Source of the DNA: Plumapathes pennacea
Lineage: Eukaryota > Cnidaria > Anthozoa > Antipatharia > Myriopathidae
DNA: 64,000 nt
Assembly (NCBI GenBank): GCA_964036295.1
Contig: OZ038468.1
Location: 196,001-260,000 of the forward strand
Reading direction: 5' to 3'
The notes beneath the pieces were generated by a model, which worked only from the letters and a program-made list of their open reading frames with translations, had not been told where the DNA came from and made no database searches. A program made the position numbers and the translations under genes. This document shows, piece by piece, positions 60,065 to 62,116 of this stretch; the stretch's first letter is position 1; each line of letters begins with the position of its first letter.

Positions 60065-62116
60065 ATGTTTAATGTACTGGTAGTGTCAAGCCTTTGGATC
60101 CCAGTCGTGTTGGCGACTGAAGTGAACACACATCAGGGTTATCACAATGTCTGTGACTGGCACTGTGTTATTCAAGACGCGTCCACCGTTGTGAAGACAT
60201 TTGAGTCGGAGATCATCGTAAAAAAGACAAGAGCTGTTAACTTGACGATCATCAGGCAGATCTACAGCAACAACGATGTTTGTCAGAATACCAGTCGCGA
60301 CGACATCAGCAGTTCGTACCTGGTGTGGGCCGCCAATGAAGAGGAGCCATATCTCTTCTTACACCAGGTGTTCCTGCTTTTCTCTAAATGGATTTCGTTG
60401 CGTTTCAGATCAAAGCTAGAAATGAACATGAATTGTACAACAAAAATACAAAGCGCATCCCTGAACGAACAAAATGGAATATCACTTTCTGATGCAGTCA
60501 TGACAAGCGTGGGACAGCAAATGATGCGAACGACTGGAGGAATATTGTGCTCCCCTCTGGCCTCACAAGACGAGAACCCTAAAACCATATACAATGCTAT
60601 CACATTTACTGTAGCTGATATCTCATACAAGTGCTGCGAATTTGACAAGTCACCATCCGGAATAACGTGCAAGGAGGTCAGTACTCCTAAATATGTCCTC
60701 TGGGTCCAGATATTGAGCATTTTGTGGTTTTTAGCATGCAGTGTGGCTGTATTTTACTTTCCAGCTATTGTATTGTTATTTCCTGCTGGTCCGAAAGTTT
60801 CTGAAGACAACATTCCTTGTACTGAGCTTGGAGACCCGAGTCCGGCTGGTATTCGCATGTTCGTGGCCAAGGCCTTCTTCAACCCACAAAAGATGAAGTC
60901 GCGCATGGATAAAGCAATTTATTTGTTACTCAGAGCTGCTGCGCTCCCCATTGTTATTTGTCTTCCACTGTTCCTTTGGGCTGCAGTCATCGTAAACCAT
61001 AATAGTGAGGAACTGTCCTCCGTCGTGATTATTTTTTGGTCATTTGCAGCGATCCTGGCTATCGCGTACTATATAGAAACGATACTTTCTGTGGTTCGGC
61101 CCACTGAGAGAGAGCGAAGGAATTGTTGGGTTTGTAAATATATAGTGTCCGAGAAGATTAAACACTCTGATCTACGTGAGCAAATCAAAGTGCACGTGAG
61201 TCTGCAACTAAACGTCCTTATCAAAGGGATCAAGTTTTACTTTCAAGCCATGTCATGGTCTTATGAGTTTTTAATAGAGAATTTTCCGGAATGGAAGCTT
61301 TCAACGAAATTTTGTTGTATTTTATTATCTCCTGTTATCGTGCTTGTTGTCAGTGTAGCGTTTTTGCTGGGAGGGGCATTATATTATATCCTCTTATTAT
61401 TCACTGCATTAAATCCCTTAACAGCCTTTAATAATCCTTCGGAGCGAAATCTGTTGCTCTCTGCGTCTCGTTCTGTTGCTGGTTTTTGGCTGGTGAGTAA
61501 TGCATTCTTGTGTGGACTGTTGATTCCACACTCATTTATGGCTGTCATTGACCATGAAAATACTGTGCTTCCACGTCTTTCCTCGGCAATGCTGATTCTG
61601 TACTACATTCATACCTACTTCTCAAACTTCTCAGAAAAGTACCAGCTGCTGAAGCTTAAACTATATGAAGGCATTCAAAAGCATCACACGTCTACAGGAA
61701 GAGTAGATACACCACTTCTACTCTACACTAAAAGTGAAGGTAATGTTGCAATACCAGAGAAACTCTACGAAGCAGCATGCAAGGAGTTGCACATGTGTGT
61801 GAGGGTCGATGTATTTTGGGCGTTGATTAAGGTTACAGGCCTCTCGATTTTCGTTTTTTCTATCTTCTGTTCAGTCATGATATTTGCTGATCGCTCAGGG
61901 CTTGGTTATCTTACCAAAGTAGTAGCACTATTTTTGGCAGCTGCTTTACCCAAGTTTTTCGAGCTGTTCTCTTCTGATGACAGTAGCAAACCATTAAAAA
62001 ATATTGATATTGAGAGGCGACTGGAAATTGTTATCACCAGATATGATAAGATGATGAGTGAGAATGGTGTGCCTGAAACAAATGCCACAGGTGCACAAAT
62101 ACAAAATCCTGCATAG
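60065..62116 (+). CDS. Unrecognised multi-pass membrane protein, intact copy C
   Basis: I do not recognise this family. Intronless, 683 aa. The start chosen is ATG 60,065, which puts a signal peptide (MFNVLVVSSLWIPVVLATE) at the N-terminus; the upstream frame is open but has no ATG. Residues about 20-209 form an extracellular region with eight cysteines (30, 34, 73, 124, 162, 190, 191, 202) and several N-glycosylation sites. About eight hydrophobic segments follow: roughly 211-239, 284-310, 318-344, 416-447, 473-495, 503-518, 582-609 and 615-635. The loop after the first carries the invariant [19 protein letters not shown] (256-274), and the loop after the third carries CWVC (354-357) and KHSDLREQIKVHV. 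A cytosolic-looking stretch 520-580 has EKYQLLKLKLYEGI. It is likely a surface receptor or channel-like protein, but function is unknown. AATAAA is at 62,206-62,211. Confidence 0.9.
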   Translation: MFNVLVVSSLWIPVVLATEVNTHQGYHNVCDWHCVIQDASTVVKTFESEIIVKKTRAVNLTIIRQIYSNNDVCQNTSRDDISSSYLVWAANEEEPYLFLHQVFLLFSKWISLRFRSKLEMNMNCTTKIQSASLNEQNGISLSDAVMTSVGQQMMRTTGGILCSPLASQDENPKTIYNAITFTVADISYKCCEFDKSPSGITCKEVSTPKYVLWVQILSILWFLACSVAVFYFPAIVLLFPAGPKVSEDNIPCTELGDPSPAGIRMFVAKAFFNPQKMKSRMDKAIYLLLRAAALPIVICLPLFLWAAVIVNHNSEELSSVVIIFWSFAAILAIAYYIETILSVVRPTERERRNCWVCKYIVSEKIKHSDLREQIKVHVSLQLNVLIKGIKFYFQAMSWSYEFLIENFPEWKLSTKFCCILLSPVIVLVVSVAFLLGGALYYILLLFTALNPLTAFNNPSERNLLLSASRSVAGFWLVSNAFLCGLLIPHSFMAVIDHENTVLPRLSSAMLILYYIHTYFSNFSEKYQLLKLKLYEGIQKHHTSTGRVDTPLLLYTKSEGNVAIPEKLYEAACKELHMCVRVDVFWALIKVTGLSIFVFSIFCSVMIFADRSGLGYLTKVVALFLAAALPKFFELFSSDDSSKPLKNIDIERRLEIVITRYDKMMSENGVPETNATGAQIQNPA

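Follow-up and report, generated by a model that had tools for sequence, protein, structure and literature searches.

A fast-evolving membrane core in a small family of orphan multi-pass proteins of Plumapathes pennacea

Introduction

The stretch of DNA analysed here (the window) comprises 64,000 nucleotides from the antipatharian Plumapathes pennacea, corresponding to positions 196001-260000 of contig 7 in a 290-Mb genome of 24 contigs; unless another contig position is stated, coordinates are counted from its first letter. It carries a real and intact gene, termed copy D, at 60065-62116 on the + strand. The gene belongs to a small family of multi-pass membrane proteins, an orphan family whose copies turn over rapidly. 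The family combines a well conserved ectodomain and C-terminal part with a membrane core that has changed fast among the copies. From their layout and evolutionary rates, these proteins may, tentatively, be receptor-like or ligand-gated-channel-like proteins of the cell surface. We describe the copies, the predicted architecture and the rate contrast on which this reading is based, and weigh it against three other explanations.

Family copies and their turnover

Copy D is a single open reading frame of 683 codons from ATG to stop. The longest frame that arose by chance in 40 simulated windows, generated with the window's own base-to-base frequencies, was 226 codons; the frame of copy D is thus not a product of chance. 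Whole-genome searches were made with four queries, namely D and the members on contigs 11, 10 and 6, and the resulting counts are lower bounds; the contig 10 and contig 6 queries added no locus to the set obtained with the other two. The genome holds at least 15 loci, seven of them open over their full length and eight broken, together with two fragments.

Six copies and both fragments form a cluster on contig 7. In the window, tblastn with the D protein recovered, besides D itself, copy A (39166-41168, + strand) and copy B (50946-52977, + strand), each in two frames and each frame-broken. The match of A starts at residue 11, and the leader is absent in that frame; the two pieces of B are 69.6% and 66.0% identical to D. 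A further tblastn match, at 63227-63418 (+ strand), is a fragment of about 64 codons that corresponds to residues 9-78 only. Beyond the window, in its coordinates, lie the intact copies E (66634-68694, 686 residues), F (71003-73081, 692 residues) and G (78074-80158, 694 residues) and a further fragment (74213-74347). No other copy was found in the 138 kb around the window (176201 to 314400 of contig 7).

Outside the cluster, the open loci are one on contig 2 (35.05 Mb), one of the five copies at 7.31-7.66 Mb of contig 10 (L044) and one on contig 11 (3.116 Mb, 674 residues). The last was found at E 1e-16 with a contig 10 member as the query and is only 23-25% identical to the others. The broken loci, apart from A and B, are the remaining contig 10 copies (L045-L048), one on contig 6 (2.2 Mb) with frame changes near its end and one at 12.33 Mb of contig 7 (L050) with one in-frame TGA, the sole stop listed within the match. 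L045-L048 (7387500-7667000 of contig 10) match one another at 91-99% across the greater part of the 6 kb compared, L047 and L048 being 99% identical across nearly 6 kb; these four are recent segmental duplicates, all of which are broken. Some of the frame breaks in the family may be assembly errors.

An earlier note on this DNA had counted four copies in 24 kb. That count stands for one intact gene, D, but A and B are frame-broken and the fourth is the short fragment at 63227-63418. Its description of the genes as intronless holds for the coding part, since each of the seven intact copies runs in a single frame from leader to stop, and with 15 loci in the present genome the family is indeed expanded.

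Predicted architecture

All features of copy D given in this section lie on the + strand. The protein begins with a hydrophobic, signal-peptide-like leader by hydropathy (residues 1-18, 60065-60118), followed in the alignment by an ectodomain of about 190 residues (60119-60697) with NxS/T sites at residues 59, 75 and 123 and conserved cysteines at residues 30, 34, 73, 124, 162, 190, 191 and 202. In an alignment of 12 of the 15 loci, from which L046-L048 were left out, each of these cysteines is kept in 10-12 of the copies, and five are kept in all 12. The hydropathy averaged over eight members peaks near residues 228, 300, 328, 417-448, 467-490, 503-515, 599 and 625. This predicts eight to nine crossings after the leader, the 417-448 peak perhaps representing two.

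From averaged hydropathy, membrane segment 1 of D spans residues 213-237 (60701-60775). The first predicted cytosolic loop contains the stretch from C252 to GDPSPAG (residues 252-262, 60818-60850). It is followed by the fast-evolving core of segments 2-5 with their intervening loop (residues 291-456, 60935-61432), delimited by identity and the ratio of nonsynonymous to synonymous change (dN/dS, or omega). Within the core, the aligned pattern places a CWVC...H...H zinc-knuckle-like motif in a predicted cytosolic loop (residues 354-377, 61124-61195). Next come segments 6-7, separated by a short acidic loop (residues 470-520, 61472-61624), a conserved predicted cytosolic loop containing SEKYQLLKL and a 14-residue motif (residues 521-583, 61625-61813) and segments 8-9 (residues 584-632, 61814-61960). 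The open frame, secreted leader, eight-cysteine ectodomain and roughly eight membrane segments that the earlier note had read in copy D are all recovered here, the leader and the segments by hydropathy.

The orientation in the membrane was assessed from the loop charges (mean basic/acidic residues of eight members): 7.1/5.8 in loop 1, 9.6/7.5 in loop 3, 7.6/9.9 in loop 7, 0.1/0.8 in loop 2, 0.1/2.4 in loop 6, 0.8/0.5 in loop 5 and 0.9/0.5 in loop 8. Since loops 1 and 3 are basic, and loops 2 and 6 are acidic and nearly devoid of basic residues, the distribution fits an N-terminus outside. With nine crossings, the long loops and the C-terminus would all be cytosolic, and loops 2 and 6 would lie outside.

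Two loop motifs had been taken as invariant, which does not hold, and we dropped the term for both. The first, GDPSPAGI, varies: GDPSPAG occurs in all six cluster copies, but the next residue is I in A, B and D and F in the intact E, F and G, where the 11-residue motif of the first loop reads GDPSPAGFRMF. Its equivalents elsewhere are RDSSPAGF (contig 2), EDPSPASF (L044), DDPSPVGI (contig 7, 12.33 Mb) and AAPSSVGL (contig 6), and in the contig 11 copy it is not recognisable. The second, the CxxC/SDLRE block, is missing from E, F and G. It is part of a longer Cys-Cys-His-His (CCHH) pattern, Cx2C-x9/10-H-x9-H, which stands in frame at the aligned place in nine of the 15 loci (A, B, D, L043, L044, L045, L048, L049 and L050); in L046 and L047 the frame break falls inside it. 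In six loci, that on contig 11 among them, a loose search pattern also has chance matches in another frame or at another place, and the evidence for the motif is therefore its aligned position and not its count alone. C2H2 zinc fingers have a Cx2C followed by two histidines. The family shares this order, as well as a phenylalanine after the second cysteine in most loci, but its spacings of x9/10 and x9, its location in a loop of a membrane protein and the lack of a Pfam call set it apart. That four residues of ligand type are kept where the protein changes fastest suggests a metal site, and the CCHH loop is a candidate for one.

Divergence of the membrane core

The identity of D to E, F and G is 56-60% in the ectodomain and 56-61% over residues 206-290, falls to 15-34% over residues 291-456 and rises again to 47-48% over residues 457-520 and 68-72% over residues 521-660. 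Rates of change follow the same division. By Nei-Gojobori counts, with the core taken as residues 291-470, omega in the core is 1.55 (D-B), 0.98 (D-A), 0.91 (A-B), 0.91 (E-F), 1.03 (E-G) and 1.70 (F-G), against 0.46-0.64 outside it in all six pairs. In all 15 pairs compared, nonsynonymous changes make up a larger share in the core than outside it. Tandem clusters and a broken state in eight of 15 loci go together with constraint on the intact copies (omega about 0.5 outside the core in three intact pairs), as in a birth-and-death gene family of the chemosensory type.

Despite its low identity, the core has kept its hydropathy profile (r 0.73 for D-E and 0.75 for D-F). Its changes are clearly hydropathy-conservative between D and A (p 0.0005), but not between D and B (p 0.09) or E and F (p 0.22). 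Between the subgroups A/B/D and E/F/G, the core exceeds the rest in synonymous divergence as well (1.3-1.8 against 0.5-0.6), a pattern that suggests conversion of the gene ends or a swapped core.

Relationship to known families

No Pfam model rose above its cut-off for 11 members, searched whole or in part (A and B to E 1; D, E, F, G and five other loci to E 10), or for ten ectodomains, a negative that is limited at E up to 10 by the HMMER filters, which remove most weak matches. At that threshold, nine members gave no model of insect OR/GR-type channels, TRP/polycystin, TMC, anoctamin, Patched or ionotropic receptors. The weak names that did appear (FPV060 chemokine, PsbN, DUFs and others) were found in one member each, below curated cut-offs where these were printed, and were discarded. 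NCBIfam returned nothing for D, the sole member tried. In the PDB, searched with one sequence and three profiles, the best match stood at E 0.49, and this and all weaker matches were taken as chance. No confirmed relative came from viral contigs or from bacterial and archaeal genomes, searched with two peptide patterns each, and Rfam had nothing in 36000-64000. Among open-licence papers, we recognised no description of such a family, and two family peptide strings (24 and 10 residues) did not occur.

A rhodopsin-type identity (PF00001) was likewise rejected. The G-protein-coupled receptor (GPCR) genes adjoining the family match 7tm_1, but none of the 11 members has a 7tm match, hhalign against the GPCRs of the window gave a probability of 0.2%, and hydropathy predicts eight to nine segments after the leader rather than seven. 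The earlier statements that this multi-pass family is unassignable and departs from the GPCR layout are thus sustained, the former within the Pfam, NCBIfam and PDB sequence libraries.

The main rival explanation is a hidden known fold: the family would belong to a known multi-pass superfamily, such as the seven-pass channels of the insect OR/GR type, OSCA/TMC/anoctamin or a solute carrier, but would have diverged so far that sequence profiles no longer reach the homology. The core is merely 15-34% identical between D and copies of its own cluster, and the sequence signal is therefore lost fast. However, Pfam listed no such model, either for nine members at a limit of E 10 or for A and B at a limit of E 1, though here again the filters drop most weak matches. 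Profile searches of the PDB were empty or ended at E 1.3, and a leader, a 190-residue ectodomain and eight to nine segments fit none of the layouts known for these families. On this balance we consider a hidden known fold somewhat unlikely.

Under a second alternative, the protein would not be a sensor but would act as a transporter, scramblase or membrane enzyme, either in the secretory pathway or at the cell surface. Those predicted cytosolic loops that are conserved, together with the C-terminal part, have many invariant residues and could hold a catalytic or coupling function, and no sequence feature demands a ligand. Pfam nevertheless recognises no catalytic or carrier family, and in a housekeeping carrier one would hardly expect the membrane core to evolve so fast. 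We regard this alternative as rather improbable.

Insect OR/GR seven-pass ion channels and gustatory-receptor-like relatives (PMC9998090, PMC7746228) are among the described systems closest to the family. Like them, the family is an expanded multi-pass one with a fast-changing membrane part; unlike them, it has a secretory-type leader, a 190-residue cysteine ectodomain and eight to nine segments, and no Pfam match. A study of stony corals describes 'dark' orthogroups, many putatively membrane-associated, which it considers to have arisen by duplication and rapid change (PMC13044578). These resemble the present family as membrane proteins without an assignable function, a general likeness that is tied to no particular orthogroup.

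A possible receptor or channel

Among the mechanisms considered, a receptor- or channel-like role appears the most likely from layout and rates, although we put it forward with less than even confidence. A disulphide-bonded ectodomain and the C-terminal membrane segments would then form a common scaffold, and membrane segments 2-5 with their intervening loop would diversify among copies and so provide specificity in sensing or gating by a ligand. In most loci, this loop has the CCHH zinc-knuckle-like pattern, on what is predicted to be the cytosolic side. The reading draws support from the seven of 15 loci still open at identities down to 23-25%, from the leader, cysteine framework and hydrophobic segments, from the loop charges, from the constraint outside the core, and from the larger nonsynonymous share and the retained hydropathy profile within it.

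Several observations weigh against it. The first concern the topology: loop 7, predicted to be cytosolic, is net acidic and has an NxS site at residue 521 of D, both of which count weakly against nine crossings. The second concern the rates. The difference between core and rest reaches p < 0.05 (uncorrected, in non-independent pairs) in only three of 15 pairs, D-B (0.0004), E-A (0.024) and A-B (0.026), each of them involving the broken A or B. In the intact pairs E-F, E-G and F-G the direction is the same at p 0.06-0.09, and the intact pairs across subgroups give 0.05 (D-E), 0.13 (D-F) and 0.24 (D-G). The excess of omega over 1 does not reach significance (D-B 1.55, interval 0.99-2.44), so relaxed constraint would account for it too; as A and B are broken copies besides, we do not claim positive selection. 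Furthermore, the ectodomain, usually the seat of ligand diversity, is conserved, and the CCHH pattern is absent from the intact E, F and G, with only its CxxC kept in the contig 11 copy.

The receptor- or channel-like reading may be extended to a class of animal surface receptor or ligand-gated channel not described before, with a conserved eight-cysteine ectodomain, a cytosolic zinc knuckle, a diversifying core and a fold unrelated to GPCRs and known receptor channels. We regard this extension as doubtful. The earlier note had called the gene its best candidate for an undescribed system, which is too strong on sequence and profile evidence.

Neighbouring GPCR genes

Three rhodopsin-type GPCR genes are interleaved with the family copies in the window, at 45851-46816 (Pfam 7tm_1 E 4.5e-22), 48531-49421 (E 1e-21) and 57490-58392 (E 1.5e-21), all on the + strand, and a fourth lies beyond copy G. 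They resemble the family genes in being single open frames arranged in tandem within one duplicated stretch, but differ from them in length and layout as well as in sequence. The block 48534-52952 (GPCR, spacer and copy B) is collinear with 57505-62046 (GPCR, spacer and copy D), with pieces 82-92% identical, and GPCR and family copy were thus duplicated jointly. At E up to 1e-20, the listed GPCR matches number 27 (a lower bound, as 132 of 1453 candidates were scored). The four closest sit in this cluster, and no family locus has one of the remaining 23 within 80 kb, unrelated GPCRs not having been looked for. A conserved functional linkage was accordingly rejected, and the association is best read as local tandem duplication. 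A further rhodopsin-type frame at 29548-30393 on the - strand (Pfam 7tm_1 E 8.7e-27) is about 22% identical to the interleaved GPCRs.

This association bears on a third alternative, in which the family is decaying: the contig 7 cluster would have grown by tandem duplication alongside the GPCR cluster, with the core drifting under relaxed constraint. Eight of 15 loci are broken, core omega is about 1, related GPCRs adjoin the family in this cluster only (among the matches listed), and four of the five contig 10 copies are recent broken segmental duplicates. Nevertheless, seven loci have stayed open over a long divergence, omega is about 0.5 outside the core even in the intact pairs E-F, E-G and F-G, and the core has kept its hydropathy profile. 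Decay seems to us an improbable account.

Other features of the window and genome

Two related frames of the window, at 9056-9571 and 23645-24124 (both + strand), have a common cysteine pattern and a hydrophobic tail; we presume that they resemble Ly6/uPAR-type GPI-anchored proteins. A reverse transcriptase domain at 33180-34115 (- strand; Pfam RVT_1 E 1.1e-31) is probably part of a retroelement, and the frame at 35904-36278 (+ strand), which consists largely of methionine codons and spans a (TGA)n trinucleotide array (35965-36238), is probably no gene. A repeat unit of about 200 bases forms short arrays at 193-851, 1202-1633, 10069-10661 and 13823-14469. Past the window, contig 7 has dense arrays and repeated blocks of about 82-98% identity (window coordinates 84736-86654 and 98090-117313).

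Contig 4 has eleven GFP-like matches at 5.724-5.765 Mb in two arrays of opposite strand (L060 holding one copy), which are 34-35% identical to DsRed over the first half and have open frames of 183-243 codons each. One of these proteins has 551 matches in the PDB at E 1e-5 or lower, and eqFP611 (E 2.1e-15) stands first among the best 60 of the 551. Such matches are in keeping with a cnidarian source but are no proof of it. The Pfam GFP search gave no match in this genome or in its control genomes.

Conclusions

A receptor function for the family is plausible from the sequence features described above. If the intact copies were expressed in sensory or immune cells, the family would be a further receptor or channel family of its animal lineage, and its conserved scaffold with a variable membrane core would offer an experimental handle. 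Otherwise, it would be one among many expanded orphan membrane families, and one that shows how fast a membrane core can change while the ectodomain and tail are kept.
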